From Lantana camara (Eukaryota; Streptophyta; Magnoliopsida; Lamiales; Verbenaceae), in contig CM074855.1 of the NCBI GenBank assembly GCA_037501455.1, positions 34,257,001-34,321,000 of the forward strand: a stretch of DNA of 64,000 nt, read 5' to 3'. Shown here one piece after another: positions 3,768 through 57,680 of the stretch. The position numbers were made by a program, and so were the translations under genes. Positions within the stretch are counted from its first letter, which is position 1, and each line of letters begins with the position of its first letter. The notes beneath the pieces were generated by a model. The model worked only from the letters and a program-made list of their open reading frames with translations, was not told where the DNA came from and ran no database searches.

Positions 3768-5413
3768 CGTGTGGCGCCCCGACCCGGGGCCTCTATTTTG
3801 CCTACGGGACCGGGCGTCAGGTGATACCAGTCACTCCACAAAACCTGTATAAACTCTAATACAAGAGCCATATCTAATTCAGAATATAATACATTAAGGA
3901 TATTCAGTGTCAACACACTTATTTACAACCCTTATTGTCTAAGATTAGAAGTATTGTACATTATTCGTGACCCTACGTTGACTAGACTATCTCAGCCACC
4001 AATATTTACACCTGAGATATAGTCACTACTTTATTCAAACCAATATGTACGCTATGCACAGTATCACCCTTAGCTCAATTCCCATTTCCAGTATCGCATC
4101 CTCTAATAGCACATTCTGGAGAACAAAACGAAATAGAAGGAAATATAGGGTGAGTCAAATGACTCAGTGGGAATTATCGCAATAATCAAGAACCGAAAGA
4201 TATCAGAGCAAATCAGAAAAGTAACGATAACAACGATAAAAAAATAAAGAACAGGGTAAACAAATAATGTTCACTGAAGGTCAAACGTTATAGGTCCCGC
4301 CTTGTATCGCCTTCCCAGATGATCAGTCCAGGCAGTAATCAGTGGCAGTGGACAGTACAGAGACCAGCGACGCACGCGTGGTCATTCCCAGGGAGCGACC
4401 TTACGAATTAGCGAACTTTGGGGTCCCCGCAGTCGTTATTCTCCTTCCAATCGGTTTACAGAATCGGTTACAGAATCAGGCTTAGGTAGGTTTAGGGTAG
4501 GCTTACAGCTCAAAAAAAATGGCTATCAATCAGAGACTCAGAACACAAGGCAGTGAACATGTAATAGATAGTACAACAACAGTTCAACGAATAGATCAAC
4601 AGACAGTAACAGATTAGCAAACCGTTGAGAGGATAATTCAGAAAATAGATCAATAAACAGCTCAAAAGGTAATTCAGACAATTTAAGGAGCAATGCAAAA
4701 GATAAGCCAAAGAACAATCCAAGAATAATGAACCAGATAGGATATATAGAAGTAAAGAGAAAGAAATCATGCTACGAGAATTGTGTTTTGTCTCCAGCAA
4801 GAAGGGGTTATTCACACCTGTCAATCAGGGCTGTTGAGCTTCGTAGTCTGTTTGGTGCTGCTCTAAATTACCTGACAAGAATAAGGTAATTGGCTAAACT
4901 CATATTCTATTGTTGGTGATTAATTATTTCTAGATACGAATTTCTATAATATATCGACATCAATTGGTTAATATTGACGTGTTTATTAATAACTCATTCT
5001 CGACGCAATTAATAATAATTGGATTAATAAACAAGTATATAAAATTATTGTGTATATTTATTAACAATTATATAAGTTCTAATAGATATTTAAACAATAT
5101 TATAAAATATCACTTAATCCTTGAATTAGTCAAATTTCTCCAATAGATTCCATTGGGTGGGGCCCACGTCAAAGTCCAGGTCAAAATAGATTTCAAATTC
5201 AAGGTTAAACTTTAATTATTCTTTACAATTAGTTAATAATACTTCTAATATAATGGCATTAGTGATTACTTATTATAAATGTCACGGTAATAATATTGAG
5301 AATCAAGGTTAATAATTAATTAGTCCTTATAATTATAACTATAATTATAATCATAAATTTAATTACCGAAATCCATTTATATTATTGTTAAGATCTCGGG
5401 TATAGTTGTTGTG

Positions 5414-5446
<33 letters not shown>

Positions 5447-5456
5447 TTTACATAAC

Positions 5457-5499
<43 letters not shown>
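5414..5499. repeat. TTA/ATT trinucleotide microsatellite
   Basis: Two blocks of (TTA)n/(ATT)n at 5414-5444 and 5457-5499 are separated by a short imperfect spacer inside the D LTR. Confidence 0.95.
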
Positions 5500-5502
<3 letters not shown>

Positions 5503-5806
5503 TTTATACATAATTAAGTTCCAATCCGTAACGACCGTCTAGCGAATCATCAATATTATCGTACAGATAGGTTTAGGAAGTCATAAATAATTTTCTGGTA
5601 TTTTTCCGGCGAGTCGCCGCCGCCGGACCGCCGCCTGCCGCCGTCGAACCACCACATTACGTCACTGGAAAATTTCCCAAAAATAACCAAAATGACTGTC
5701 TTTTTACGCTCATTAACAATATTCAATCAATTTCAGCTTATAATCTCAGGTTAGGGATTAATTCAAGAATCCCCTTCCAATCCCAACCTCAAACCCTAAA
5801 ATTAAA

Positions 5807-5871
5807 GGGGGTGATGGCGTCTCTGGTTGGGGAGAATTGGGGGTGATGGCGTCTCTGGTTGGGGAGAATTT
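5807..5871. repeat. 32-bp tandem duplication in D LTR
   Basis: The phrase GTGATGGCGTCTCTGGTTGG recurs at 5811 and 5843, a period of 32 bp, with near-identical flanks. Confidence 0.93.
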
Positions 5872-5932
5872 CTGTGTGTGTGTGAAGGAGTTGAGTGCGT
5901 GTGTTTTTAGGTATAAAGTTAAATGAATTAAA

Positions 5933-5949
5933 GGGGGGGGGGGGGGGGG
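5933..5949. repeat. 17-base G homopolymer
   Basis: This is an uninterrupted run of G on the plus strand within the D LTR. Run length is often misread in sequencing. Confidence 0.9.
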
Positions 5950-7582
5950 TTGGGTTATTTTAATCAGACGCACTATGCATCTGATTTAATTCCTTTTTTT
6001 TTTTCTTTTTACCCCAAACTTTCCTAAATTCTATTTTCACCCCCAAAACTTCTAATTTAATTTATCTAGGCCCAATAACATAATTAATGCCCTATTAATA
6101 TTTTATAAACACACAATTATATAATATAATCGATTACCATAATTTACGGGGCGTCACACCAACACACCTAAGTTAGGCGGGACGTAGACCCAGAATTTAA
6201 AATTCAGAGCGTGCGAATGTGGAAGCTTAAACATGTCAAACCATAAAATTTTCTAACATACAAATAACGGGTTCAACTAGTATAAATCCCTAGTCCCGAA
6301 TATCAACCATAAACAAAATCTTAGATCACAATTCAAACGGGTTCATACTATCCCTAGAAGCCTGTCCCGAATCATCACATAAGTTAAACAATAGATTCAT
6401 ATGCATATACATGCTCATGTTATAAAAACTTAATCAAATTCAAATATGAATGCAAAAGACCAAACTTGTACAAAAGACTCGACTCCAAAACGGAATTCAA
6501 GACCGACTCACGCCGCCTAGCTCGAACTTCAAAGCAAACCTGCAAAGATAAAAACATGGGGAGGGAGGAGGGTCAGTCCAAAGACTGAGTGAGGGGCTAC
6601 ACATGCACACCTACATATACATAGAGCACAACACGTTTAAAAGTGAATGTTCATGAATCCGAGATTAGTTTTTGTACTCCAAAACATTTGCCCGTGATAA
6701 TAATATATATAGGGTGGCTTAACAAACAAAACAAAATGGAACTTAAGTTACATAGTCATAAGGTAAGTTCATAACAGAGGAAACTTAACAGGCATATCAA
6801 AACATATGTTATTAGGTTAAAAGTATACCAAATTTTATCTTAATTTAAGAGTCTACCCCCGTTTCACGAACTTATGACAGACAAGCAAAAAACTTGGTGG
6901 GTACGAGTGCAAATCCAACAAACTCCTTCATATCAAACTCATAGGCATAATAAAACAAAATCAAAACAAGCGTACTTTCTGTACTTCGGGTGATGGAAGG
7001 GTTGTACATACCCTAACCATCCCGGCATTTATGTGTGGGTCGTGAGTTTCATGACACTCACGCCCGAGGATTCCATTTTCCAACCAATCTCCTGGTGGGG
7101 TCCGGGTTGATCCTTAAAGTGGAGATTGTACTCGGGAGTAACCCGACGGCACAACACCGTCCAGGGCCTCCTTCGTATGAATCTCCAGGGCCCAGCAAAG
7201 CGCAAAGAGCAAAAGGTAAAACTCAAAGTGCAAAACCCGCTACCGATAGACAACCGTACCTCATGCATATTGTATTTATCAAATCGTACGTATGTACCAT
7301 GCACCGACCTCAAAATCATATCAAAATCGAAGCTAAGCATATATAGGCTCATACATAGGATTCATACTTTCAAACTAACTACAAAACCAACAAAACACGT
7401 ATGTCACACATATCTACATATACATAGAGGCTTATAAGTCACATGCATCTGAAAACGACCACATTTCAATAGGGTTTAACTATATCCTAAACTCACCTTA
7501 CACTGATGAAGCCAAAGACATGATCGATCCACCCCGGAGTCAACTTGACCAACAAACACCACTCCGGGTGAACCTGAACAAA

Positions 7583-8711
7583 CTGAAGACAAAGTACAAG
7601 ACTTAGACTCAAAACGAACCATATAGATGCACGACTTATGTTTATGCACTTAAGGAATGCAATCAATTAGGCAAAGTTCATGTTCATGTGTACAATTAAG
7701 GTAATGGATGTAAATAAGATGGCAAACGGTAACACTTAATCAATCATGAACATGTGAAACACTTAACACATAATAGCATGCCTTAAAATCACATACTTCA
7801 TCATATCACATCAATTCATATTCATATAAGAGCATATAACAAGTTCAAAACATGTAAGGAAGGCAATTAGGTATAACGATACGTCACTCGTAGCACTTAG
7901 GGCAAACTAGTTCATAGTTCACATGCAAGCATCGAAATCATACCAAAACGAGTACATACACATTATTTATACTTGGAACATAACAAATTCAAACATTAAC
8001 AAGTCATAGAAAAACAATTCATACATATAAACAAGCACACAACATATAAGGATCAAGATAGGGGAGGGAAACGGGCAAGACAAGCAAACAAACGAAGAAA
8101 ACACACAAAACACCAAGCCTTGGGGACTAATGGCCGTTAGTCCCCTATCTTCTATCTTCCACTAACGGCCGTTAGTGGGCACAAAACCTCCAACTGCTAC
8201 TAACGGCCGTTACCTTCAAGAGGGCTAACGGGCGTTAGCCCTCCCCTGCTTCGTCTTCCTCGCACAAACGCCTGCAAATCAGCCTCAAAACCCCACAAAA
8301 CTCACACTAAAGCTAGATAACATATAAGGGAATGTTAGGACATCAAAAACTCAAGAATTTACGGCCTAAAACAAAGCAAAACCCGAAGCAAAACAAGGAG
8401 CAATTATAAGAGATTCAAACATATACATATATTGCATTCAAGCTTGGAGCATTGATGGCAACTCCATAATAACTCAACTACCACTTAATACATGAACATA
8501 GAAGCATCTATGGATGTCTTGTGATCATATATCATGTATCAAACTAAAAGAAATTACAAGGAAAGGCATATAATTCATGCAAGATCCCAAAACCCTCACT
8601 ATTCACCACTATTCATGCTCTTCCCCAAAACCCTAGAAAATTAAGCTCAAATTCTAAGTTTCGTGGATGAAAAGAACCAAAAATGGATGTATAACACAAA
8701 AATATGCTTAC
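7583..8711 (-). other. Intron-like segment in C 3' LTR
   Basis: On the minus strand the donor reads CAAGAG|GTAAGC at 8711 and the acceptor TTTGTCTTCAG ends at 7583 (an alternative CAG ends at 7574). The equivalent sites in the 5' LTR are at 40143 and 38992. Splicing is inferred from site quality and from the precise absence of the corresponding segment in element E. Confidence 0.5.
8122..8245. repeat. Palindrome array, family C: ACTAACGGCCGTTAGT type
   Basis: Four near-palindromes lie at 8122-8145, 8160-8177, 8198-8214 and 8221-8242. The shared unit is CTAACGGCCGTTAG with core CGGCCG or CGGGCG. The array starts about 466 nt after the putative donor. Confidence 0.9.
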
Positions 8712-11013: not shown

Positions 11014-11811
11014 CCTGAAAATCGCAAGCACTATAATATAGATATGTGCATGATAATTAGTAAGTGCAAATGTCACATAATTAACTCAATTAAGAGAAAT
11101 CAAGAATTACGATGCATCACGTAATATAAAGTCAACAAGATAATAAAATTTTCAAATACATAGCATATCAAACCATGATGCAAATGCACACATAGTTAAA
11201 TTGTCCTATACCGTTCGACCTAGACGAACTCAACATATAACGCCCCAATTTTCGAAAGTTCAGGTAAGCACGCCATGAGCGGGTCTTCGGGAGTTGGGAG
11301 GTTTAATTTAATTATTTCATTCACCTATTTATAACTTTCATCATATTATATACATTATATCTTCTCGTATTTATATGAATTATCTTTATCGTGAATTATA
11401 TGAATTAATTGTTATATGCGATCTAATTACACTACATGTCCTTAATTGACCTTTGTGTAAATTTGTGTACTTAATTGTATTACATGAATTGCGGTTACTT
11501 GAGCATATTCCATGGAATGATACTTGATAGAATGAATTCAAATATTAGAGGGACTTATGTGCAAAAATGGATGACTCATGTCTATTCTTTCAAGACTTTG
11601 AATATATTATCTCATTTCTTCCAATTTATTCCATTTCATTCCAAGAGATACAAGAATTATCACACACCTACACACACTAAAAATCGGTCATTACACCAAG
11701 GAAGAGAAGAAGAATTTCATCTCATATTTCAAGCTAGATTTTAGAGGTATTGTGAGGCTAGGATCATCATCATCATCTTACCATTTCATCTCATCCCTAT
11801 TCCATTTCAAG

Positions 11812-12754
11812 GTAGAATTTGGAGTTTGTAAATCTCTTGAATATATACTTGAGTAGGGTTTGATGATAAAAGGACGAATTCTTGGGTGTTTATGATTAGA
11901 AGCATGTTTATGATCAAATGATTGAAGCTTGCATGGAAACATTGAATTATATGGAAGTTGGAAGCATGAATATATATGTGGGGTTTTGGTGATGGATTCT
12001 TGATGAGTTGATGTATATTTCATGGTTTAATTGATGTATAAGTCAAGTATAATGTGTAATAGATGCATTTGAGTATTTGTGATGGAGTGGATATTGATGT
12101 GATATTAGTTTTGGGTGATTGTGGTTCGTTTCCCCTGTTTTCCCCCTGTTTTGCTGCTGCTGCTGCTGCGTAGCAGGTCGCGGCCGCGATCGAAAATAGA
12201 GCAAAAATGGTCGAGCCCGCGACCCACTCACAGCTTTGGCAGGACTTCAGGTCGCGGCCGCGGCCTGAAAAACACTAATTTTGATCGTGACCGCTACCCG
12301 TTTTTGGCCAAGTTTCGACATTTGAAAAATTGGAGGAAAATTCGGGGAAAAAATAGGTCGTGCCCGCGACCATTTTGTGAACAAAATGGCTCGCACCCGC
12401 GACCCCTGCATGTTCTGCATGGAAATTTGATTTTCAAACTTTAATTTCAGGGTTTTATTGGCTCGTTTCCGGTATGTGCTATTCATTTCCATGTCATATA
12501 TTGCATTAACTTGCATGTTATGAACTTTGGCATGAGTTTGTGAATTATTTTTCGAGTTTGATTTAATATGTCATTTTGGTTCCAAGTATGTGCATGCATG
12601 AAACCTTGCTACCAATATGAGCTCAAATATTCCTTGAAGTGAACAATTATGTGATTTAATTGTCCGACCATGCTATTGCATTATGTGAATACGCCGCTCG
12701 TCTTATTTGGTTCATACGAGTCAAGTCTTACGTACATTTGTCCTTGTTACACAG
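11812..12754 (+). other. Intron-like segment in A 5' LTR
   Basis: The donor is TTTCAAG|GTAGAA and the acceptor TTGTTACACAG|ATAACGG, 943 bp apart. The 3' LTR equivalent is 19219-19981. Element E has these two flanks directly joined. Splicing is an inference. Confidence 0.55.
12176..12404. repeat. Palindrome array, family A: GGTCGCGGCCGCGACC type (5' LTR)
   Basis: Six copies lie at 12176-12191, 12209-12225, 12250-12265, 12283-12299, 12356-12371 and 12388-12404. Several have decayed by one or two bases. The core is CGGCCG or CGCCCG-like, and the array starts 364 nt after the putative donor. Confidence 0.92.
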
Positions 12755-13149
12755 ATAACGGTCCCAGAGTCGAGGAGCACTTTCCATAGGGTGTTCCCTT
12801 TCTACTTTTGGTTGGTCAAGGTGAGGTTTAATTCCAGATATTTAGAACCCTTATAACCCTAAGTGCTGTTTTCGGCCAAAAGTATATATAGCTATAGTTT
12901 TCAAACTTTAATGATTTTCAACCGATTTCATGGAACGAATTGATTGATTGATTGATTGGGCGAGTAAGCATGTTCACTGTGGGCCCGAGGGTAGTGTATT
13001 GAGCCAACCGGGAAAGCAAGTGCTGACGAGCAACTCTTGCACTATCCTCACCGTTGTTGGGATCACCTCTGAATCCACCAGGAGGTTTAATTTGGTGGAG
13101 GAATAAACCCCGTACGTGGGAGTCATGTTCCCGACGTACAACATGATTG

Positions 13150-13177
13150 GATGGTTGGGTCTTGCAAGCCCACCATC
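13150..13177 (+). other. Conserved hairpin in A 5' LTR
   Basis: The stem is GATGG plus TGGGT pairing with GCCCA plus CCATC, with a bulged T and loop CTTGCAA. Matching hairpins with different paired bases occur in E, F, H and I. Confidence 0.6.
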
Positions 13178-13906
13178 ACCCGGAGGAAGAAGGGTTCATC
13201 AAACTGCTAATTGATCGCACATAATGAATTGCATGATCACTTAATAAATTGAAATAAGCATGTATTGTTAACTATTGGAGAAAGGTTGGAGAATTGCCCT
13301 CACTAGTTGGGCCACAGACTGAATTGATAATGATTGATAACTAAATTGACTTAGTTGTAATCTCGAGCGAGAATTCATATTCTATTCTTAAATTTATATT
13401 GTTTCTTTATAAAATCTTACCCGAAATTATGGCTTGTATGCTAATTGCGCTTATAATCATAAACCCCTTTACTCAGTCTTTCATAGACTGACATCTCACA
13501 TTTTCAGTTTGCAAGTTGAGTGCTAGGCGGGATCGAGTTGGTCTTATTTTGGGTCTTTCTTTTTAAGTCTAACATTCCTTTTTTATGTTAATATATATAT
13601 GACTTATGAATTATTTTGGGTACCTATGTATATCATAACTTGTTATGGAAGATGGATGTATATATTGAAGTGAACGACCCCGAATGTGATAATAAATGAA
13701 TGAATGCATATTATTCTACTTCTGCTTTATTGTCATACATGTTGATTTATTTGAGGGTTAGTCCTGCCTAGCTAGTGAGCCTTTTTTTTTAGTGTCTCTC
13801 GTTCGCTATATGCTCGATTCATGTATGGATTGTCCATTCTATATGTGGATTGAACTATAGTGCGGGGGATATGGCTACCTAGCGTTCCGGGTGCTACATC
13901 CCAAGG

Positions 13907-13918
13907 TGGTATCAGAGC
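13907..13918 (+). other. A primer binding site, initiator tRNA-Met
   Basis: TGGTATCAGAGC lies eight bases after the 5' LTR end and is complementary to the 3' end of initiator tRNA-Met. Confidence 0.95.
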
Positions 13919-14132
13919 CCGGTTGCAAAACCACGGTTCTAGTGTCGTGTCTTGTGAGTCTAAGCCGTACGACATTGGATTATTTGATGAATTACGAGTC
14001 TTGCATTTTACTTGAAGCTACCTGGATCTATTTGAATTATTTGAATTATGTGATTTATGTGTATTATAAGCTTTATTGCACCCATTTTGCACTTGTTAAT
14101 CAAACATGCATATATAGTGTTTGAATTTCAGG

Positions 14133-17100
14133 ATGCCTCGTGGAAGACCTCTTAGAGAGCGTTCTCCGGGTCATAGGCATCATCACCATTATCATTCTCC
14201 TCCACCTCCACCCTCTCAAGCTCAACCGCAGGATTTCTTGAATTCCATGGTACAACTTATAGATCAGAGATTAAGGGATTATATGCCTCCAGCACCACCA
14301 GCTCCTCAACCACCACCTGTACCTATTTCAGCTATATTACGGGAATTTCAAAATCAACACCCACCATGATTCTTCAAAGAAAATGATATGCAAGCCGAGA
14401 AATGGCTTAAGGAAGTTGAAAGGATTTGGAATCTTATCCCTTGTGAATCTAGAGAGAAGGCTCGGTGCACACTTACTTTAATTCAAGGGGAAGCTTATTC
14501 ATGGTGGGAGAGTACCAAGATCATCTTGGATGCCGCCGAGGAAGAAGTTACATGGGAGGTTTTTGTAAGGGAATTCAAGAAGAAGTTCATTCCTCCCTCA
14601 TCTCGCACTAGAAGGCTCAAGGAATTCACGGAGCTCAAATAAGGGGGTAGATCGGTTGCTGAGTATATAGCCGAGTTTGAGAGGTTGTCCAAGTATACAC
14701 CTAACATTGCAAGCGACGATTTCCACAAGGCTATGCAATTTATACAAGGTTTGAGGCTGGATATTCAAACGGCGATTGAAGCAGTTAATACAAGTACATG
14801 GAAGAAGGCCACTACGAAGGCCTTAAAAGTTGAAGATTCAATTAATGCTCGGAGATTCACATACAGGTCGGGTCAGGGCTCCGGTTCAGGGTCGAGGTCA
14901 AATTACAATCCCGGAAAAAGGCCGACCACTTATGATGTAGCTCCAACACAGTTTAAGGGTCCGACAAAGAAATTTAAGCCACAAGTGCCGTTCAGAAAGC
15001 TCCCCGTGCTACACCTACAGCGCCACCACCTACCGGTAAGCCCGGTTGTTCTTATTGTGGGTTACCTACTCATACTTATGAGGGTTTCCGGTGTCGTCTT
15101 AAACTTTGTTTGATTTGCGGGAGTGCCAATCACATGGTTGAGGGATGTCCGGATAAACGGGATCCGTCACCTGGGGGTCAGAGGCCACTCATCAGAGCCC
15201 ATTCATATGCCTTGGAAGGCGAAGAGCAGGATGCCGAGGTGGATCCAGCAGCCGTTGTTGAAGGCACCATTTGCATTCATGGCACAAATATACATACCTT
15301 GTTTGATCTGGGGGACTACCCACTCTTTTATTTCTTGTGATATTTCTATTAAATTGCCTTTACGTGTTAATTATTCTGATGCATGCTATGTGGTTAGTAC
15401 TCCATTTGGTGGTAGTGTAGAAACTAACCGGGTTTTTAAGGAGGTGCCGGTGAGTATTGAGGGTCGGGTTTTCTCAAAGGATTTTATTGAATTGCCGATG
15501 TCTCGTTATGGATCTATCTTGGGTATGGACTGGTTATACAAGCACTGTGCCACCGTTGATTGTCGGGCCAAGAGAATTCAGTTGGGTTCAGAAGTTGTCA
15601 CGGGTTGGAGTTCTAAAATTGTACCTTTATTATCTTTCTCCGAAGCTCAAAAATTGGTTCGTGATGGGACTACGGGATTTATAGCCTATATTCTGAATCA
15701 GCCTAAAGATCAAATGAAGTTAGAGAAAACAGAAGTGGTTAAAGAATTTCTCGAGGTTTTTCCCGAGAAGTTAGATTCATTGCCGCCGGATAGGGAGATA
15801 GAATTTATTATTGATTTGTATCCGAATGCCAAGCCGTACTCTAAAACTCCATATCGGATGGCTCCGGCGGAATTGAAAGAGTTGAAGGTGCAACTTGATG
15901 GTCTTTTGGAAGTCGGGTATATTGGACCAAGCTCGTCGCCGTGGGGTGCGCCGGTATTGTTTGTAAAGAAGAAAGATAGTACTTTAAGAATTTGTATTGA
16001 CTACCGGGAATTGAATAGGATGACCATCAAGAATAAATACCCTCTACCACATATTGAGGAGTTGTGTAACATACTCCAAGGGTCCAAAGTTTGTTCGAAA
16101 CTGGATCTACGACAAAGGTATTATCAACTAAGGATCCGAGCCGAAGATATATCAAAGACGGGTTTCAATACGAGATATGGGCATTATGAATTTGTAGTTA
16201 TGCCTTTTGGTTTGACGAATGCACCGGCCGTTTTTATGGACATGATGCATAGAATTTTCCGACCGTTTCTTGATAAATTTGTTGTAATTTTCATTGATGA
16301 TATTTTGGTCTTTTCCAACTCGGTAGAGGAACATGCAAAACATCTCAAGCTTGTGCTGAAAACTTTGAAGGAACATCAATTATTCGCAAGTTTAGCAAAT
16401 GTGAATTTTGGATCGACCGGGTTTCTTTCTTGGGTCACGGATTGGAAGTCGATCCCTCAAAAGATTGAAGCGGTGTTGAAGTGGGAGAAGCCAAAGAACG
16501 CATCCGAGGTTAGAAGTTTCTTGGGATTGGCGGAATATTATAGGAGGTTCGTGCAAGACTTCTCTAAGATAGCTGCTCCTTTAACCCGGTTAACAAAGAA
16601 AGATGTTAAGTATGTGTGGGATGACTCTTATGAGAAGAGTTTCAATATCTTGAAAGAGAAGTTGGTTTCAGCTCCGGTTTTAACCCTTCCTGAGGGTTGT
16701 GAAGGATACGTGGTTTATACGGATGCGTCAAAGGAAGGTTTGGGGTGTGTTCTAACTTAGAATGGAAAGGTGATTGCTTATGCATCCCAGAAATTGAAGG
16801 AATATGAAAAGAATTACCCGACACATGATCTTGAACTTGCAGCGGTGATATTTGCACTCGGAAAATAGAGACATTACTTGTATGGAGGGTCTTTTGAGAT
16901 TTTTACCGATCATAAGAGTTTCCAATATTTATTTACACAAAAGGATCTCAATATGAGGCAACGGAGATGGATGGAACGGTTAGAGGACTATGATTTTGTT
17001 ATTAAGTATCATCCCGGGAAAGCTAATGTGGTTACCGATGCGTTAAGTAGGAAGGTTAACGTATCGAATTTGGAAGTTGGGGAAAGTAATGGGATGGAGC

Positions 17101-18642: not shown

Positions 18643-19218
18643 TGAAACGCCCCAATTTCCGGAAGTTCAGGTAAGCACGCCACGAGTGGGTCTTCGGGAG
18701 TTGGGAGGTTTAATTTAATTATTTCATTTATCTATTTATAACTTTCATCATATTATATGCATTATATCTTCTCGCATTTATATGAATTGTCATTAACGTG
18801 AATTATATGAATTAATTGTTATATGTGATCTAATTGCACTACATGTCCTTAATTGACCTTTGTGTAAATTTGTGTACTTAATTGTGTTACATGAATTGCG
18901 GTTACTTGAGCATATTCCATGGAATGATACTTGATAGAATGACTTCAAATATTAGAGGGACTTATGTGCAAAAATGGATGACTCATGTCTATTCTTTCAA
19001 GACTTTGAATATATTATCTCATTTCTTCCAATTTATTCCATTTCATTCCAAGAGATACAAGAATTATCATACACCAACACACACTAAAAATCGGTCATTA
19101 CACCAAGGAAGAGAAGAAGAATTTCATCTCATATTTTAAGCTAGATTTTGGAGGTATTGTGAGGCTAGGATCATCGTCATCATCTTACCATTTCATCTCA
19201 TCCCTATTCCATTTCAAG

Positions 19219-19981
19219 GTAGAGCTTGGAGTTTGTAAATCTCTTAAATATATGCTTGAGTAGGGTTTGGTGATAATAGGATGAATTCTTGGGTGATTAT
19301 GATTAGAAGCATGTTTATGATCAAAAGGATTGAAGCTTGCATGGAACCATTGAATTATATGGAAGTTGGAAGCATGAATATATATGTGGGGCTTTGGTGA
19401 TGGATTCTTGAACAGTTGATGTATATTTGAGTATTTGTGATGGAGTGGATATTGATTTGTTATTGGTTTTGTGTGATTGTGGTTCGTTTCCCCTGTTTTG
19501 CTACTGCTGCGTAGCAGGTCGCGGCCGCGACCGAAAATAGAGCAAAAATGGTCGCGGCCGCGACCCACTCACAGCTTTGGCAGGACTTCAAGTCGCGGCC
19601 GCGACCTGAATAACACTAATTTTGAACGCGGCCGCTACCCATTTTTGGCCAAGTTTCGAGATTTGAAAAATTGAAGGAAAATTCGGAGAAAAAATAGGTC
19701 GCGCCCGCGACCCCTGCATGTTCTGCATGGAAATGTGATTTTCAAACTATAATTTCAGGGTTTTATTGGCTCGTTTCCGGCATGTGCACTTCATTTCCAT
19801 GTCATATATTGTATTAAGTTGCATGTTATGAACTTTGGCATGAGTTTGTGAATTATTTTCCGAGTTTGATTTAATATGTTATTTAATTATCCAACCATGC
19901 TATTGCATTATGGGAATACGCCGTTCGTCTTATTTGGTTCATACGAGTCAAGTCTTACGTAAACTTGTCCTTGTTACACAG
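19219..19981 (+). other. Intron-like segment in A 3' LTR
   Basis: The donor is TTTCAAG|GTAGAG and the acceptor TTGTTACACAG|ATCACGG, 763 bp apart; it is shorter than in the 5' LTR because of internal deletions. Confidence 0.5.
19517..19712. repeat. Palindrome array, family A (3' LTR)
   Basis: Five copies lie at 19517-19532, 19550-19565, 19591-19607, 19624-19640 and 19697-19712. The first two are perfect 16-bp palindromes GGTCGCGGCCGCGACC. Copies five and six of the 5' LTR array are fused into one here. Confidence 0.93.
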
Positions 19982-20375
19982 ATCACGGTCCCGGAGTCGA
20001 GGAGCACGCTCCATAGGGTGTTTCCTTTCTACTTTTGGTTGGTAAAGGTGAGGTTTAATTCCAGACATTTAGAACCCTTACAACCCTAAGTGCAATTTTA
20101 GGCCAAAAGAATATATAGCTATAGTTTTCAAACATTAATGATTTTCAACCTATTTCATGGAACGGATTGATTGATTGATTGATTGATTGGGCGAGTAAGC
20201 ATGTTCACTGTGGGCCCGAGGGTAGTGTATTGAGCCAACCGGGAAAACAAGGGCTGACGGGAAACTCTTGTACTATCCTCACCATTGTTGGGATCACCTC
20301 TGAATCCACCAGGAGGTTTGGTGGAGGAAAAAATCCCGTACGTAGGAGTCATGTTCCCGACGTACAACATGATTA

Positions 20376-20403
20376 GATGGTTGGGTCTTACAAGCCCACC
20401 ATC
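20376..20403 (+). other. Conserved hairpin in A 3' LTR
   Basis: It is the same stem as at 13150-13177, with loop CTTACAA. Confidence 0.55.
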
Positions 20404-21016
20404 ACCCGGAGGAAGAAGGGTTCATGAAACTGCTAATTGATTGCACGTAATGAATTGTATGATCACTTAATAAATTGAAATAAGCATGTATTGTTCACTA
20501 TTGGAGAAAGGTTGGAGAATTGCCCTCACTCGTCGGGCCACAGACTGAATTGATAATGATTGATAACTAAATTGACTTAGTTGTAATCTCGGGCGAGAAT
20601 ATATATTCTATTCTTAAATTTATATTGTTTCTTTACTAGGCGGGATCAAGTTGGTCTTATTTTGGGTCTTTTTTGTTGAGTCTAGCATTCCCTTTTTATG
20701 TTAATATGTATATAACTTATGAATTGTTTTGGGTACCTATGTATATCATAACTTGTTATGGAAGATGGATGTATATATTGAAGTGAACGACCCGAATGTG
20801 ATAATAAATGAATGAATGCATATTATTCTGCTTCCGCTTTATTGTTGTACATGTTGATTTATTTGAGGGTTAGTCTCTCCTTGCTAGTGAGCCGTTTTTT
20901 TTTAGTGTCTCCCGTTCGCTATAGGCTTGTTTCATGTATGGATTGTCCATTCCATATGTGGATTGAACTATAGTGCGGGGGATGTGGCTACCTAGCGTTT
21001 CGGGTGCTACACAATA

Positions 21017-21459: not shown

Positions 21460-22437
21460 GTAAGTGCCGAACTCCCCATGACATCCACCATCTTTCTACC
21501 GATTGTTTTCTCTTGAGAATGTGATTTTGTTTGAGTTGTGGATATATGTGAATAGTAAGGGTTTTGGCCAATTTTGACGAATTTGAGTTCTTGGTTGGAT
21601 TTATTTGTTGTATAACTTCATTTATGTGTTCTATATGTGAAGAGTGTTGCATTTAATTCATGGTTTTGGTTGGGATTGCATTTATCATTTGACGACATAA
21701 ATGAGCTTGAATGTGTTTATTTGGGTTTGAGTTTTTGAGACTTGGTTCCATGATTCATGGTTATATATGCATACATTAGTGTATTTAGCATGTTAATTGT
21801 TGAGCTTGTTGCATTTGTTGGACAAATTTTCGTGTTTTGGAGGATTGGTTCGAACCCCTATTTCTCGCCAGTTTTTTGCTCCAGACGCGATCCAAACGAG
21901 CTTTTGGTGCCTTAGTGCATTTTGCAAACGCCCGTTTGGGTTGTAAAATTTTCGGGCAGTAGCTTTCTAAACGGGCGTTTGGTCGCCCTTTGTATTTTGC
22001 AAACGCCCGTTTGGAAAGCCAAATTTGTCACAGACGGTTCGTAAACACCCGTTTGATATTTGAGCTAAAATGGAAAACGGCCGTTTACTGGCCCAATGTC
22101 CGTTTTTGAATTTTTTGACTTTTCCGATTCGATTCCTAAGCTTCCGAAACGCCTTTATGTGTCTTCTATACATGCTTATTGGTAAATTTTGCGCTTGATA
22201 TGTGTTGTATGATTTGTTACGCATGAGCTTGGATTTCCATGCCTTTATTTGACCTAATATGATTCATTTGAATTATTTGTGGCTTGATTTGATATGAAGT
22301 TTCTAAGATATGAATCGATATGATTTGAGTGGCATGTTTATGCATCACATTTGCATCCATTGCATTCATAAGAATTTCCGGGTGTCTATTTGGTTCATAT
22401 GTAAGTCTAAGTCTCGGGTTGCATTCTTTTGTTTCAG
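21460..22437 (+). other. Intron-like segment in B 5' LTR
   Basis: It is 978 bp with donor GTAAGT and acceptor CTTTTGTTTCAG, which match plant splice consensus well. The 3' LTR has the same 978-bp interval once H is set aside (31616-32593), with both sites conserved. Confidence 0.55.
21891..22092. repeat. Palindrome array, family B: CAAACGCCCGTTTG type (5' LTR)
   Basis: Six units start near 21891 (decayed), 21924, 21968, 22000, 22042 and 22074. Cores are CGCCCG, CGGGCG or CGGCCG with AAA/TTT arms. The array starts 431 nt after the putative donor. Confidence 0.92.
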
Positions 22438-28363: not shown

Positions 28364-29198
28364 TGTGATACCCCGATTGTTCAACTGTACAGGTATGATA
28401 TACGTGCGCGATTTAAATTCATTAATTATGTAATATATGATTTGTAACACCCGAACGCATGGTGCCACATCCCCCGCACCGAGACCCGACCCGCATATGA
28501 AATGGATAATCCACACACGAGCTAAATCACGGCGAACGGGGACACACACACACACTCTCTCGGCTAGGCGGGACTAACCCTTGAACCAAAAATCAGAGTA
28601 ACACCAATAAAGCGGAAGAAAGAATAATCATATATCTAAGTACCATGAGCTTTCAAGCTCCAAAAACAATAGAATTCATATACCTACTCCAACCAACTAT
28701 TTCAAGTTCTGACAACATAACGCCCCATAACCATATTCATATACAAAAAGGGAATCATGAGTGCGAGTGTAACAAAATAAGAGTGCTAAACACTAATGCA
28801 AGACCTAGACGACTTGTATTCCCGCCTAGCACTCCTTATCCAGCACAAAAGTCACTGAAAACAAAACGGGTTCAGTCCAAAAGGGACTGGTGGGTATAAA
28901 ACAGGCATAGTATGTAAATATCGCAGAATTTAAACATATACATGCAAGTTATAAACCCATAAGAAGTTTTTAGAAGATTTCCCAAGTGGGTGAGATAAAG
29001 AAAGACATCTACGGGTTTACAACGATCATATTCATTCATAATTAGTCATAGGGTTTCAAGCTCGGTGAGTGAGCGTACATAAACTCCAACCAACACCTTG
29101 TGTATTCATATTCATAGTTTCATTGGTTATCATACATATCATATTTGTGCACAATCATTCGATTCATAATCATACATATACACCTTTTCCCTCCAAGT

Positions 29199-30006: not shown

Positions 30007-30625
30007 CACATGCACGTACATTAGCATGCAACCACAAAAAGCAAGAAAGCAGAAGGTGACACGCCCGTGTCACCAATACAAGGCAACCCTTGACACCCCC
30101 ATGTCAGGGTACAGCGGACTATACGCATGAAAATAGAAGGTGACACGCCCGTGTCACCATTACAGAGCAATCCGTGACACCCATGTCACGGTACAGAAAA
30201 ACCAGACCAACATGCACCCCCGTGTCACGTTGAACAAGGCAAAGTTGACACGCCCGTGTCAACTGTACGCAACAGAAAAAAAACAGAGCACCAGCAGAGC
30301 AAGAACGAAACAAAAACAACAACCAAAAAATTATCCAAAATCAAGTTCAACCGCATAGATTTCATGCTAGAACCACTAGCTTACATATAAATCATTAACA
30401 ATTCATAAAATACATATTTCCACCTTAGATCATCAAAGAATTCATCAATACAAACCCATTTCATCAATCATGCTCCAAGTCCATGAATCTCAAGATATAA
30501 GCATAAATCTTAAGCTTACAATTCACAAACATATTTCCAACAACAAATACACACATAAACCAACATATAGCAAAGCCCTCTTCATGCCAAAAATATCAAG
30601 AAAATCATCCATGCTCCAAAATTAC
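29662..30625 (-). other. Intron-like segment in LTR H
   Basis: The minus-strand donor ATTGAG|GTAATT is at 30625 and the acceptor CTTGCACAG ends at 29662, a span of 964 bp. Confidence 0.5.
30055..30263. repeat. Palindrome array, family H: TGACACGCCCGTGTCA type
   Basis: Six units lie at 30055-30074, 30089-30109, 30139-30158, 30173-30191, 30212-30229 and 30244-30263. The core is CGCCCG or a decayed form. On the minus strand the array starts 362 nt after the putative donor. Confidence 0.93.
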
Positions 30626-32046: not shown

Positions 32047-32245
32047 TCCAAACAGGCGTTTGGTGCCTTAGTGCATTTTGCAAACGCCGGTTTGGGTTGT
32101 AAAATTTTCGGGCAGTAGCTTTCTAAACGGGCGTTTGGTCCCCCTTTGTATTTTGCAAACGCCCGTTTGGAAAGCCAAATTTGTCACAGACGGTTCGTAA
32201 ACACCCGTTTGATATTTGAACTAAAATGGGAAACGGTCGTTTACT
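32047..32245. repeat. Palindrome array, family B (3' LTR)
   Basis: The same six units as in the B 5' LTR occur here. The first one, decayed at 21891, still reads AAACAGGCGTTTGG. Confidence 0.92.
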
Positions 32246-35923: not shown

Positions 35924-37347
35924 GTAAGTTTATGATTGTTTTCTCCACTCAGATTTAGTCATTTTGATCCAAGAATCTCTGAGTTTGAACCATGATTGAT
36001 TGAGATATGATTATGTGAATGAATAGTTAGGTTTAATTTTCATTCCTTGAATCCATGACTTTATTTTCGAATTCTTTGAGAATTAGTGCATGATATATGA
36101 CCATCCTAGCTTCCTTTACTTGCTCTTGGACTGGAATTTGATTTATATGAAGTGTATGTGGAACCACCATGATTGAAATGTGAGTTTGAAGCTTTTGAGA
36201 ATAAATTTGCTTCCATGCATGCTGCTGTGTGTTGCTGCTGTTGCGTGCTTGTGTGCTGCGTGTTGCCTTATTTATTTTCTTACCTTTGATTGTTGGTTGT
36301 TGCTGTTTTGTTACTTGAAGAGGTCCTCTGCTGTTGCTGCATGAGAAAGGAGAAAGAACAGGACAATAGTTGTTGTTGTTCGTCGCGCTGTTGTGATCTC
36401 CCCGCCTGTGTTGGTTATGTCCCCGGGCGGGGACACTTTAGGCAGTAGCTACTGCCTTCCCCATGCCCGGCCGGGGACTCTTGCTTCCTTTTCTTTCCCT
36501 GGGCAGGGGCCTGCGTGGATTTTATTTTGTGTGTTGTGTATGATATTGTGTGCATGAGTTTATGTGATGCATGATATATATATCTATATTATATGTGTAC
36601 ATGCAAGTATATATATATTTATATGTGTGCATATGAATCATGTATATATTCTATATACTCATGCATGTGCGTACTAAATATATTACGTATTTATATATAT
36701 AGATATGTTACGTGTGTTATATTTTATTTTTTTTTTGTATGCATGTGAAATGAGTATGTATTATATGTTAGTGCATGTATGTATATATATTATATATAAA
36801 TATATTATATGTTATATATATTCTTAATTAATGCATGCACGTTTGATATGTATGTTTATTATATTATATATATATATATAAATATGTATGGTATTGTTTA
36901 ATTTAATTGAAAATTTAATGTGTTGTTATTTAATATGTGGAATCCTAATAATAATTTGAAATGAAATTATGAGACTAGAATGGTATGATATGTATTGAAT
37001 TAATATGAAATCTAAGTGCTATTATTTAAGGATTTGAGTGGTATTATATTATTTCATGAAGTGTGACCTTTAAATTGTGGAGTTTTATGCTATGAACTAT
37101 GAAATGAATGAATGTGAAAACTTTATAGATTGAATAATGAACGAATGATAATGAAAGATATGAAATGTTTGGGCTTGAAACCTTTATGCTATGAACGTAC
37201 TTGAATGAATTACTTGAATTATGTGGCTTCATGACATCATTTTACTTTTTAAACATCTCATACCATATGTATTACGTTGTCGTGCGTCATATGTGGTTCA
37301 TTTAGAGTCCTGAGTCTCACGAATGCGCGGTATTGTCTTTTGTACAG
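35924..37347 (+). other. Intron-like segment in LTR I
   Basis: The donor CAAGGG|GTAAGT and acceptor GTCTTTTGTACAG bound 1424 bp; both match plant splice consensus. Confidence 0.5.
36397..36511. repeat. Palindrome array, family I: GTCCCCGGGCGGGGAC type
   Basis: Four units lie at 36397-36414 (decayed), 36419-36434, 36457-36478 and 36496-36511 (decayed). Cores are CGGGCG or CGGCCG. The array starts 473 nt after the putative donor. Confidence 0.88.
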
Positions 37348-37816: not shown

Positions 37817-39530
37817 ACCCGGAGGAAAAAGGTGTAAGTGTTTATGTTTATGAATGATAATGATTATGATTGTTTATGAATGAATATGAACGAATATGTA
37901 TGAATGTGTATGATCACTAACGTAAAAGATTGAATTGATATGCACACACGAAGAGTAGGTTGGAGATATTCGCCCACACGCCAGGGCTCACGTACTGACC
38001 GCATGATTGTAATGACTAAATGAATTTGATAGTTGTAATCCCGAGCGTTGTTTTCCTTTGTTTTACCCACTTGGGAAATATCTTAAAAACCTCACACGGG
38101 ACTATAGCTTGCATGTGTGGTTGTTTAAATTCTGCGATATTGTTATATATGGTATGCCCTATTTTATACCCACCAGTCTCCAATAGACTAGGTGGGAAGT
38201 CGAGTTTGTCGAGTCTCTTGATCGAGTTGGAGTCTGTTCTTATGCATTTTGTAATTGAATAAGTTATAAATTTATGCATGAAATGTTATGATTATGTTAT
38301 ATTGATTCGGGACAGGCTTCTAGGGATAGTTGAACCCATAAATTTGTGATTTATAATTTATGTTTTAATTTTCGGGACTAGGTATTCATGCTAGTGGAAC
38401 CCGTCTTCTATGATAAACTTCGTTATTGAATATATGTTCTGCTTCCGCACTCGCATTTAAATTCATGAGCTTGTCTATTTGGTTTCGAGGTTCTAGCTCC
38501 CGCCTAGCCTAGTGTGTGAGTGAGTCCCCGTTCGCCGTGATTCGGCTCGTGTATGGACTCTCTATTTCATATGCGGGTCGGGTGTCGGTGCGGGGGATGT
38601 GGGGCCTTCCGTTGGGGCGCTACAGCAAAACTCAGTGCAAAACCCGCTACCGACAGACTACCGTATCTCATGCATATCGTACTTATCATATCGTATATAT
38701 ATACCATGCACCGACCTCAAAATCATATCAAAATCGAAGCTAAGCATACATAGGGTCATACATAGCGTTCATACTTTCAAACTTACTACAAAACCAACAA
38801 AAAACGTATCTCACACATATCTACATATACATAGAGGCTTATAAGTCACATGCATTCCAAAACGGCCAGATTTCAATAGGGTTTAACTATATCCTAACCT
38901 CACCTTACACTGACGAAGCCAAAGACACACGATCGATCCGCCCCAGAATCAACTTGACCAACAAACACCACCCCGGGTGCACCTGAACAAACTGAAGACA
39001 AAGTACAAGACTTAGACTCGAAACAAACCATATAGACGTACGGTGTATGTTTATGCACTTAAGGAATGCAATCACTTAGGCAAAGTTCATGTTCATGTGT
39101 ACAATTAACGTAATGGCAGCAAATGAGATGGCAAACAGTAACACTTAATTAATCACGAACATGTGAAACACTTAACACATAATAACATGCCTTAAAATCA
39201 CATACTTCATCATATCACATCAATTCATATTCATATAAGAGCATATAACAAGCTCAAAACATGTAAGGAAGGCAATTAGGTACAACGATACGTCACTCGT
39301 AGCACTTAGGGCAAACTAGTTCATAGTTCACATGCAAGCATCAAAATCATACCAAAACAAGTACATACACACTATTTATACATGGAACATAACAAATTCA
39401 AACATTAACAAGTCATAGCAAAGCAATTCATACATATAAACAAGCACACAACACATAAGGATCAAGATCGGGGAGGGAAACGAGCAAGACAAGCAAACAA
39501 ACAAAGAAAACAAGCAAAACACCAAGCCTA

Positions 39531-39679
39531 GGGGACTAACAGCCTTTAGTCCCCTCTCTTCTATCTTCCACTAACGGAGGTTAGGCCCCTCTCTTCTATC
39601 TTCCACTAACGGTCGTTAGTCGGCACAGAACCTCCAACTGCTGCTAAAGGCCGTTACCTTCAAGAGGGCTAACGCCCCT
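39531..39679. repeat. Palindrome array, family C (5' LTR)
   Basis: Five decayed units start near 39531, 39570, 39604, 39642 and 39664. One extra unit, together with the intervening CTCTTCTATCTTCCACTAAC, is duplicated relative to the 3' LTR. Confidence 0.85.
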
Positions 39680-44015: not shown

Positions 44016-44083
44016 CACGTGTGTGACACGTGTCACAGTGACACGTGTCACTCACGTGAGCCACACGTGTGACTTCACACGTG
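44016..44083. promoter_or_regulatory. Six-copy CACGTG cluster in G 3' LTR
   Basis: CACGTG starts at 44016, 44027, 44042, 44053, 44064 and 44078, mostly within longer palindromes such as GACACGTGTC. CACGTG is the G-box/ABRE core bound by plant bZIP and bHLH factors. It lies about 350-420 bases upstream of the TATA-like site. Confidence 0.85.
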
Positions 44084-51439: not shown

Positions 51440-53393
51440 TGTTGGAAAACACGAATCAGAAAGCAGCGGAATTTAAAAATTTTCCCAACAAAAGGACCTA
51501 GAACTCGCAATCGTGTAACCAAATTCGTAAAGATAGAAAACTTACTTTTCTTTTATTCTTTCTTGAAGCGTTTCAAGCCACCCAAGAACGCTCTTCTCGT
51601 GGCTTGATCCCCTCTCCTTGGTAAAGCTCGAATCTTCAAACTTCTAACATGAAGTCTCAAGAGAAAGTCCACCACCTTGATCACAATCCAACTAGTAAGG
51701 ATGCTAGTTCTCTAGTTAGTGTTTAGGCTTAACCTAGGGTTTAATTTAATCTTGGAGAAAGGAAGGTGTTCAACACATGAACCAAGAAATGTCTATTAGC
51801 TCTAAAGGGGAGCATGAGCTCCCCTATATATAGGAAAGGGGAGGGGCGGCCGAACCTAGTCCTTATTGGACAAGGATTTGGTTCCTCTCCCTCCTATTAC
51901 TTGATCATCAAGTATTTTCCAACTTTGACTTTGAATTCTAATTCTAGTCAACTTTTAAGAGAGCTAAAAATATCCAAACTATTTTTGGATAATTTTATAC
52001 TTTATTTATTATAAAATAAATAACTTATTTTTATCTAATTAATTAATTCGTAATTAATTAACTAGATTATTTTCTCCAAAATTAGACTTTCTTTTTAATT
52101 CAAAATTAAACCAAAGTCTATTAAATAATTAACTAATTAATTATTTAATATATATATAATATATATATATATATACACACGTGTGTGACACGTGTCACAG
52201 TGACACGTGTCACTCACGTGAGCCACACGTGTGACTTCACACGTGTGGAACCCTCTTGGCCCGATTAATTCGTTTAATCATTTTTAAGCCTCAACTCATG
52301 TAACCAAGTTGTTGTGTGTGACCCTCTAGGTTCTCAATTCAATTAGCAGTGACCCCAATTAATTAATTCACCAATTAATTAATCAGTCCACAGATTAAAC
52401 GACCATAGTCTAGCAACAGGTGTTTAACCCCTAGCTGAATTGGAATGTTCGGATTCGACAGAACCTTTAAGTCATTGATTCATGTGAGATACAATCCTCC
52501 TACTTACTATCTCTCAACCAAGATCTAGGGCAAGGGAATAATCAGAACCCTAATAATCCGGTCGTAAAGCTAAGTGCATTTCATATCCATTTGATCTCAA
52601 TCCAAGAAACCCTTTTCTTGATGTCTTGATCTACTGCCTTGGCCAAGGACTCCATATGGCATATGAATGACTTACACAATAAGAGATCACCTTGCAGATG
52701 CAAGTGTAGGTCCTTTCTTGATTCTCATTCACTTTCATGAATCACTTGTGCAGCCCCAGCATAAGCCTTGAATCAGTTGTCTAAGGCGACACCCTTTAAA
52801 GCTTATACCTAAGACTACAGAGTTAACTCATAAAGTGACAAGGAACCTCAAGTCTAAGGATCAATTAATCACATCAATGACTCGTGAGATATTTCCTAAT
52901 CTGGAAGTTTCCATTTCCTGAAATAGAAACTTCCTTTCCCATTTAGGAATGTTCTCCCACGGGGCACCTCAGTGAACTTACTTGTTAAAGTAAGCACCCT
53001 CATGTATCACGCACGTATCAACTATACACTTTGCACCTCCATGAAACAAGGTGGTCCTTCTTAAGGGCGTGATCCCACAAGCAAGCCTTAGAGGAGTCAG
53101 GTTGACACTCCCACTGTCTGTAGGACTCATCGGCTTGGAGTATTTTACTAATCATGACTTATGTGATATAGGGCTCGTTTCATGAACCATTTCACCTAAA
53201 TGGTAGAGTCCTAAAGTCATCAGGATTAGGGGAGTTCTCATACATGCACAGCTAAAGTAAACGCATACCAAACAAGAGCATATAAAGAAGTGTTGCCTCA
53301 ATTCGTTATTTCATTCAAAGATTGTCTGTGATTACAATAAGGAAAAGCACAAAGCGGATATACAATCGGCTTTCTAGGGCACTATTCCTAACA
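51440..53393 (-). repeat. G 5' LTR (1954 bp)
   Basis: It is the same length as 43278-45231 with about 13 substitutions. It carries the same TATA-like site and CACGTG cluster, which here drives the element's own transcript. Confidence 0.96.
52178..52245. promoter_or_regulatory. Six-copy CACGTG cluster in G 5' LTR
   Basis: The same six CACGTG sites as in the 3' LTR, all conserved, start at 52178, 52189, 52204, 52215, 52226 and 52240. Confidence 0.85.
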
Positions 53394-53751: not shown

Positions 53752-53860
53752 GTACCTGGGCGGTCGGGGGGGGGGGGGGGGGGGTACTTTTGTCCCGTAA
53801 ACCTTCTGGACAGCTTTACCCGGTCGGGGAACTTTTCCTTGAAATTTACCCGGCCGGTTA
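53752..53860. repeat. Palindrome array, family F: TTACCCGGCCGGGTAA type
   Basis: Units lie at 53752-53788 (expanded by a 19-base G run at 53766-53784), 53816-53830 and 53846-53860. Cores are CGGTCG and CGGCCG. The array starts about 361 nt after the putative donor once G is removed. Confidence 0.8.
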
Positions 53861-54864
53861 CTCCCTCATCCAAACTCTAAATGACCTGATTTTTGAACCG
53901 TTGGAAAGCCCTTGAAGTCTAAAACAACCTCCAATTGAAATCATCTCAATATCGTTTCTAGTTTGTGAGATATTATCAATTCTTTTTGGTGTCACTGCTT
54001 TACCGACAAACTACATTCACCCAACTTCAATCCTACGCCATTTTATCCTCGCTTTGAACTAGAAAACGAGCCATATATCATTTTAAAGGTATAATTCTCT
54101 AGTTTCATTCTCAAAAAACAAAACCCAATTCCAATCTCTAGAACTTTAGATATTTCCTGTTTTCCACAGCTTGATCATTTTCAAAAATTACCGGTTTTTG
54201 CCAAACTTCACCAAAACCCTTGTTATTGCGTTCCTTTCACTTTCTTGGCTCCCCTATGTAACTTATATGACTTTTATGCTTACTTAATTGATAATTATGC
54301 TCCTATTTGACACTTTTTGATACTTTATTTGGGAATTTGGGCACATTCATAATAGTTATTGATTGTAAACACATGATTGACATCGCATGATTTTGCCGTT
54401 CGTCTTAAATGGTTCTTACGAGTCAAGTCTCACGTACACTTGTCCTTGTTACATAGATCACAGTCTCAGAGTCGAGGAGCCCGCTCTTTAGAGTTTCTTT
54501 CCACTTTTGTTGGTTGGTGAAGGTGAGGTTTTAATTTCTAGTTATGGAACCCTTATAAGCCTTACGTGATTTTTGGCCAAAACGTATCTATATATCTATA
54601 GTTTTTGAACCTTATGATTTTCAAATGATTTCACAAAAATGGATTGATTGATTGATTGATTGACGAATTGATTGTTTTGGCGAGTAACTATTGTTCACGT
54701 TGGGCCCGAGGGTAGTGTATTGAGCCAACCGGGAAAGCAAGGGCTGACGGGTAACTCTTGCACTATCCTCACCATTGTGGGATCACCTCTGAATCCACCA
54801 GGAGGTTTGATGGAGGAAGAAATCCCGTGTGTAGGAGTCATGTTCCTGACGTACACCATGATTG

Positions 54865-57446: not shown

Positions 57447-57680
57447 CCGGTTGCAAAACCGAGGTTCTCGAGTCGTGTCGAGTCAGTCTAGGTCGCACGG
57501 CATAGGATCATGTGGTATTGGGAGTCTGCATTGGGCTGATTTACTTGATTTACTCCCTTATTCGTATTAATTGAACTACGTGACTTTCCTTGAATATGTG
57601 TTATTTGATATTATGGACATTGTGTGCACACATTTGCATTTATTGATCAAGCCACGCATGTTTAGTGTTCTAATTTCAGG

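Follow-up and report, generated by a model that had tools for sequence, protein, structure and literature searches.

What are the arrays of short GC-core palindromes in the LTRs of Lantana camara retrotransposons, and may they act as a recognition code? The window, i.e. the whole stretch of 64,000 nucleotides analyzed here (GenBank assembly GCA_037501455.1, contig CM074855.1, positions 34,257,001 to 34,321,000, forward strand), contains LTR retrotransposons nested in one another throughout, as judged by self-BLAST and reading of the sequence. By the same means, LTR pairs were found for the elements A and B. The 5' LTR of A (11235 to 13903, plus strand) lies next to a PBS (TGGTATCAGAGC at 13907) and matches the 3' LTR (18643 to 21012, plus strand) in self-BLAST, the ends of both being approximate. 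The solo LTR H sits inside the 3' LTR of B, the solo LTR I inside the second LTR of C, and a copia element interrupts F; E occupies the left end of the window (LTR at 3772 to 6158, minus strand) and G the right end. RT, RNase H and chromodomain-like proteins are encoded by both A and G, which makes these elements Ty3/gypsy chromoviruses; we take their clade to be Tekay. The RVT_1 domain was matched in both elements. With a cut-off of 25.1 bits, the Chromo domain scored 25.9 in A and, slightly under that line, 24.6 in G, where the integrase core rve also matched below its own cut-off.

A first-pass annotation of the window had described arrays of three to six near-palindromes in six LTR families (A, B, C, F, H and I). 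Using a fixed criterion for palindrome axes (at least six of seven arm pairs, at least five of six core bases G or C), we detected 32 GC-core axes in the window compared to 6.97 expected (sd 2.60, highest 15; 200 block-wise dinucleotide shuffles). Twenty-five of them fell into nine array stretches, and the seven outside correspond to the chance level; the stretches were drawn around palindromes already seen, and the free test is the window total only. Four axes each were found in the 5' and 3' arrays of A and of B and three each in the first copy of C and in H, counts that were reached in 0 of 1000 shuffles in every case. The second copy of C (one axis, p = 0.035) as well as I and F (one axis each, p = 0.09 each) gave weaker signals. 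The automatic criterion overlooks some units (three of six in H), and a few axes were set by hand.

The array in the 5' LTR of A (12176 to 12404, plus strand; arms GGTCGCG) has axes at 12184, 12217, 12258, 12292 (set by hand), 12364 and 12397, which are paired at distances of 33, 34 and 33. The spacer separating the last two palindromes, at 12380, is itself near-palindromic (CCATTTTGTGAACAAAATGG). The 3' LTR of A (array at 19517 to 19712, plus strand) has axes at 19525, 19558, 19599, 19632 and 19705. In the 5' LTR of B (21892 to 22088, plus strand; arms CAAACG), three pairs with centers 32 apart each are formed by 21900 and 21932, 21975 and 22007, and 22049 (set by hand) and 22081; the array of the 3' LTR (32048 to 32244, plus strand) shows the same order in partial decay. 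On the minus strand, the first copy of C (8125 to 8238; arms CTAACG) has axes at 8231, 8206, 8168 and 8133 (25, 38 and 35 apart), and the array of the second copy (39570 to 39660), whose LTR holds the inserted solo LTR I, is decayed. Also on the minus strand, H (30056 to 30261; arms TGACACG) has axes at 30253, 30219, 30181, 30148, 30098 and 30064, at distances of 34, 38, 33, 50 and 34, with 30219 and 30098 set by hand. The weak arrays of I (36419 to 36478, plus strand; arms GTCCCCG) and F (53816 to 53861, plus strand) comprise axes at 36427 and 36471 (44 apart) and at 53824 and 53854 (30 apart), respectively; I contains an additional perfect 16-bp palindrome with a different core at 36449.

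Palindromes were recovered at all annotated array places. The number of three to six units held in A, B, C and H, whereas F has two and I two plus the one of different core. The core was mostly CGGCCG, CGCCCG or CGGGCG as described, but CGACCG, CGGTCG and CGGGGG also occur in relatives. The initial observation is therefore partly confirmed, i.e. clearly in four families and weakly in two, and it extends to the genome. In all five arrays tested, the inner 16 nt were similar among units (0.62-0.88) and the outer flanks dissimilar (0.24-0.35), indicating that the inner site itself is kept and that most sites are not mere passengers of larger tandem repeats; by reading, duplicated stretches form exceptions in H (about 84 nt long) and in the second copy of C (a short one). 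A palindrome cluster of another kind was noted in the copia LTR pair (44029-44073 and 52191-52235), where the core is CACGTG (GACACGTGTC and relatives) instead of CGNNCG.

Searches of the genome covered part of the assembly from which the window comes (378 contigs, 1.27 Gb in total). GGTCGCGGCCGCGACC occurred 2022 times and its reversed control once; a pattern of LTR end plus PBS gave 8403 + 8567 matches and the control 0. From about 100 LTR ends listed for one chromosome, 18 LTR types were chosen by hand via the LTR-end sequence, blind to arrays and with one copy each, leaving out L043, L056, L059/L060 and L064, in which arrays were already visible. Thirteen of the 18 contained palindromes at a distance of 30-35 bp, which none of 100 shuffles did; this criterion was fixed after the spacing had been seen. 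Among the remaining types, L079 and L082 have units 74 apart, and L072, L074 and L075 one unit or none, within survey pieces of 0.9 kb each, so that arrays elsewhere would be missed. Four further LTR types outside the 18 also have arrays, and palindrome pairs 30-35 apart were contained in three of six random 10-kb genome pieces as well. E and G are members of the lineage in whose window copies no array was found.

Some further sequences came up in these searches. L030, a random piece of C2, contains many palindromes with an ATCGC half-site (at 1293, 1622, 5674, 6768 and 6953) and is probably a satellite. L001-L004, contigs filed as bacterial, encode an RT 63-67% identical to that of the window and are probably eukaryotic contamination; L001-L003 have 0, 0 and 1 GC-core palindromes and L004 has 39 in 20 kb of 63% GC. 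Viral contigs were covered by four of eight scans, which found no relatives.

The palindromes are arranged as pairs, and the spacing goes with the arm sequence. With L030 excluded, neighboring centers were 31-34 nt apart in 65 of 136 distances from 45 clusters, many of which are related copies, compared to 9.6 for random placement (sd 2.9, highest 22 of 2000); up to eight units were detected per array (L013). The spacing was 33 (35 cases in 24 arrays) or 34 (5 in 5) for GGTCGCG, 32 (7 in 7) or 31 (2 in 2) for GGGAACG, 32 (4 in 3) for CAAACG, 31 (4 in 3) or 30 (1) for TWCCCG, and 34 (8 in 5) or 32 (4 in 2, L077 and L033) for GACACG, with single cases of 34 for GGTAACG and 35 for CTAACG. The 24 GGTCGCG loci had been selected for an exact A palindrome, which biases the arms and leaves the spacing unbiased. 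As 32 is common to GGGAACG and CAAACG, and GACACG has two values, a spacing is not unique to one code. In the window, C and I depart from 31-34 with the distances given above. Genome-wide, the gap pattern CCGCGACCN{5,35}GGTCGCG gave 2177 + 2507 matches and its reversed control 5 + 2. Among the first 100 matches listed, which represent 68 distinct places after overlapping readings had been merged to the shortest, the gap corresponded to 33 in 46 and to 34 in 10 places (56 of 68). In seven of the eight GACACG pairs spaced at 34, the first unit has the center GGGG and the second GGGC; the orientation of the eighth (L031) is undefined. An obligation of the two units to pair with each other is disfavored, because partner sequences often differ (e.g. 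GGTAGCG..CGCTACC beside GGTCGCG..CGCGACC).

By reading, a donor-like site on the 5' side and an acceptor-like site on the 3' side flank the array in each array family. In A, the putative intron 1 spans 11812 to 12754 of the 5' LTR (plus strand; CAAG/GTAGAA to TTACACAG/ATAACG, slashes marking the splice sites), with an acceptor side that aligns with F, H and G, the sibling G being intron-less; in the 3' LTR, it was read from the sequence at 19219 to 19981 (plus strand). In the alignment, the acceptor side is in register for A, F, G and partly H, and the donors of B, C and I are out of register. The putative donor lies 364 and 298 nt from the array in A, 432 in B, about 472 in C and about 364 in H, all near the values annotated before; the distances to the first accepted axis in I (about 495, previously 473) and F (about 431, previously 361) deviate from them. 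AGGTNN donors at such distances were present in nine of 21 genome pieces examined. In six of them (L066, L076, L078, L083, L084 and L085), the donor precedes the first unit by 361-382 nt, in L081 by 298 nt, in L070 by 474 nt and in L077 by 479-484 nt. Three of the other pieces are without a unit, and most others begin too close to the array to judge; L065 and L068 have enough upstream room, yet no AGGTNN donor at such a distance.

In the LTR of G, exon 1 and exon 2 are directly joined at 56184/56185 (plus strand), and intron 1 is missing together with the array. In a relative of G, a single locus covered by L085 and L043, precisely this junction is occupied by a GT..AG stretch of about 820 nt with five GGGAACG palindromes inside. 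Its splice sites are TTTTAAG/GTTGGT in L085 and GCACAG/GTCACG in L043, where G reads TTTTCAAG/GTCACG, and the flanks are 81% and 91% identical. From this fusion and the relative's intron at the same place, G is most simply read as a copy made from spliced RNA. This shows that the intron is real in the lineage of G and that the array was dispensable for at least one round of copying; in the other families the intron remains putative. The G LTRs (55585-57336 and 62249-64000) are 99.9% identical across the 1752 nt compared, and the intron-less copy was therefore inserted recently. G thereby resembles SpIREs, spliced integrated L1 copies that are likewise copied from RNA after splicing of a leader intron (PMC5860796), and it shows their defining exact loss of the GT..AG intron of a relative. 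Unlike these L1 copies (PMC5860796), G is an LTR element, the loss affects both LTRs, and the array is removed.

Two further splice-like features were noted. At 12815-13503 in A and at matching places in B, F, G and H, another candidate donor (AGGTGAG) and a candidate acceptor (TTTCAG) ahead of a shared TGCTAGGCGGG suggest a second LTR intron that is retained in G. In addition, an acceptor-like TTTCAG directly precedes the gag ATG in A (14120-14135) and G (57670-57685), so that splicing might remove the PBS from gag mRNA.

The position in a spliceable stretch implies that the array is present in unspliced RNA only. It is therefore conceivable, albeit unlikely in our view, that the palindromes are hairpins or self-pairing sites used for dimerization or packaging of the genomic RNA; in retroviruses, packaging signals extend in part past the splice donor. 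Five of the eight array stretches folded as RNA (A5 with -5.4, A3, B5, C1 and H) had z-scores between -4.0 and -5.6, as an RNA element would predict, but the antisense strands fold equally well, and in 100-nt windows the array was the best-folding part in A3 and B5 only of seven array LTRs. The individual hairpins are weak in B (-3.4 kcal/mol, equaled in 65 of 200 shuffles) and F (-0.9, equaled in 146 of 200). A strand test comparing G.U with A.C mismatches showed no preference in the window (8 vs 8), in 102 GGTCGCG units (16 vs 17) or in 1338 stem cells of 223 units (27 vs 38), the latter list taking in 12 L030 satellite units and six pieces of undefined orientation.

Two properties of the units fit an RNA element better. 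The center dinucleotide is polar with respect to transcription in two codes (GGTCGCG: CC 43, GG 0; GACACG: GG 23, CC 1) and not polar in CAAACG (4 and 4), which is unexpected for independent symmetric DNA sites, though common descent contributes. Moreover, the outer arms of GACACG units pair within the unit above the cross-unit null (83 vs 45.4, 0 of 3000 shuffles), which exceeds what a simple dimer site needs and may in part stem from two mixed unit types. Outer pairing within units was also found in GGTCGCG (p = 0.0013) and in the window (p = 0.0007-0.017 with duplicates removed), there carried by C and H, with A and B alone at p = 0.2-0.6. No significant outer pairing was found in GGGAACG, TACCCG, TCCCCG and CAAACG, however, and an RNA element has no obvious need for a near-fixed spacing. 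Furthermore, G in the window was copied from array-less RNA, and Rfam returned no RNA family in the window at gathering thresholds. Retroviral packaging and dimerization signals comprise one or few hairpins, and the arrays differ from them by up to eight units and the missing G.U signature. In both, palindromes are located in the genomic RNA leader (PMC2222663, PMC5086612). Altogether, the spacing and the lack of a G.U excess favor putative paired DNA-binding dimers. Apart from the arrays, single windows near the LTR 3' ends of A, H, I and G (13785-13884, 20893-20992, 28443-28542, 38496-38595 and 57325-57424) showed strong local RNA folds, with z between -4.6 and -7.7 and with sequences that look alike between families by eye.

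If the arms are read as a code, do they label LTR families, as the annotation had proposed? This proved wrong. LTRs from two clades share GGTCGCG arms, and the arms do not follow the trees: on trees of 20 rows, several of which differ in base make-up, the arm labels require 13 changes (3' LTR) and 12 changes (leader plus gag) compared to 13.6 when shuffled, counts as low being reached in 86 of 200 and 23 of 200 shuffles, and only CAAACG makes one group. Furthermore, close relatives have different codes. Per 100 columns, the sister elements L056 (GACACG) and L064 (GGGAACG) agree at 62-89 upstream of the array, at 32-43 within the array blocks and at 80-100 past the intron acceptor, and they are 88.9% identical over the last 900 nt of the LTR and 92.6% over leader and gag (PBS to +1500). 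The same pattern was observed for L066 and L070 (60-81 per 100 upstream, 32-55 in the array).

The spacers were in part shared between codes. A 13-nt piece (TCATGAAGAAAAT) is common to GGTCGCG and TWCCCG arms and another one (CTTAGTGCATTTT) to GACACG and CAAACG arms, and spacer similarity across codes was 5.61 vs 4.77 (sd 0.09, highest 5.05 of 300 shuffles), to be taken with caution as spacers also exceed the shuffles when compared to their reverse complements (5.28 vs 4.77). Sister elements with unlike codes and identical spacers between unlike arms thus point to a common repertoire of arms that would be swapped or rewritten rather than to family labels, and both cassette exchange and in-place rewriting are suggested. 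The proposal of a recognition code is accordingly retained in part: the constant form, the arm-linked pair spacing, the 33-34 gap in most of the listed places and the differing arms of sisters fit it, but not as a family label. Gag was considered as the reader of the code. The L056/L064 pair, with different codes but 92.6% identical leader and gag, makes this unlikely, as does the tree, although the former is only one close sister pair.

Based on these sequence patterns, we lean towards arrays being DNA recognition modules in the first LTR intron that are read by paired dimers. A module would consist of two palindromes with centers mostly 31-34 bp apart, i.e. about three turns of B-DNA, and an AT-rich spacer between them. 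Each palindrome would be held by one homodimeric DNA-binding protein, placing two dimers side by side, and arm sequence and spacing would determine which protein binds. The reader would presumably be of host rather than element origin, and the likely output would be control of transcription or chromatin from the intron, as an enhancer, insulator or anti-silencing platform. Exchange of array cassettes or rewriting of arms would change the address. Findings that speak against such modules include, besides the distances in C and I, the polar centers, the outer-arm pairing and the array folds, a spacing of 33-34 that misses a whole multiple of 10.5 and the recent insertion of G without an array. 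More tentatively, and with considerable doubt, the arrays might constitute an address system of paired dyad operators in the LTR intron, comparable in its logic to the immunity groups of temperate phages. It would draw on a limited number of codes that differ in arms and preferred spacing, and a family of paired-dimer proteins would presumably supply one reader per code. An element would change its address through cassette exchange or through rewriting all its palindromes in concert around kept spacers.

A neutral origin appears improbable to us. In this case, template switching in hairpins, in the course of replication or reverse transcription, would perfect palindromes and spread them without their having a function. 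Such a process could yield symmetric double changes, and nine of 15 in GGTCGCG units do keep pairing; it could likewise rewrite arms around a kept spacer. It leaves unexplained, however, the shared CG..CG core, the single place in the LTR and the arm-linked spacing.

The annotation had pointed to VANDAL transposons of Arabidopsis as an analogy. The targets of VANC proteins are likewise short motifs that are clustered in noncoding and intronic DNA of the mobile elements, differ among relatives and turn over fast (PMC5735166, PMC10398659), and the arrays are dense noncoding motifs differing between related elements as well. By this analogy, each lineage might encode, or once have encoded, its own reader that binds the array and lifts silencing, which we deem very unlikely. 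In G, two ORFs carrying gag-pol domains take up the internal region, and in A this region is no longer (about 4.7 kb), which leaves no room for a dedicated reader gene; no further ORF of at least 250 aa was found in G, the one element with intact ORFs, which is itself array-less. In addition, the code does not follow gag, and the VANC21 motif YAGTATTAY is non-palindromic and arrayed in one orientation (PMC5735166). Compared to VANDAL/VANC as portrayed there (PMC5735166, PMC10398659), the arrays belong to LTR retrotransposons and consist of palindromic dyads with near-fixed pairing and codes spread across lineages, and no encoded reader was found. The analogy thus carries as far as clustered noncoding or intronic motifs with fast turnover.

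The preferred DNA modules can also be compared to sites for host proteins. The Drosophila gypsy insulator is an array of Su(Hw) sites in the leader of a Ty3/gypsy element, bound by a single host protein at non-palindromic sites and not known to switch among codes; the arrays share with it the placement of putative protein sites in the transcribed leader of such an element. The heat elements of ONSEN and the U3 repeats of Tnt1 are sites for stress factors in plant LTRs that are repeated, sometimes palindromic and different between subfamilies. They lie upstream of the transcription start, in contrast to the arrays in the intron, and we know of no code-specific pair spacing for sites of this type. 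Among the papers listed in searches of the open-licence PMC literature, a set that most subscription papers lie outside, none had a title or opening of the abstract that describes paired palindromes of this kind.

The elements themselves offer natural experiments. L056 and L064, and the more distant L037 and L050, have similar backbones with different codes and represent natural swaps, and the intron-less G represents an array-less control. If our reading is correct, the arrays would provide a handle, readable from sequence, on how related retrotransposons of one genome partition regulators among themselves or escape silencing.
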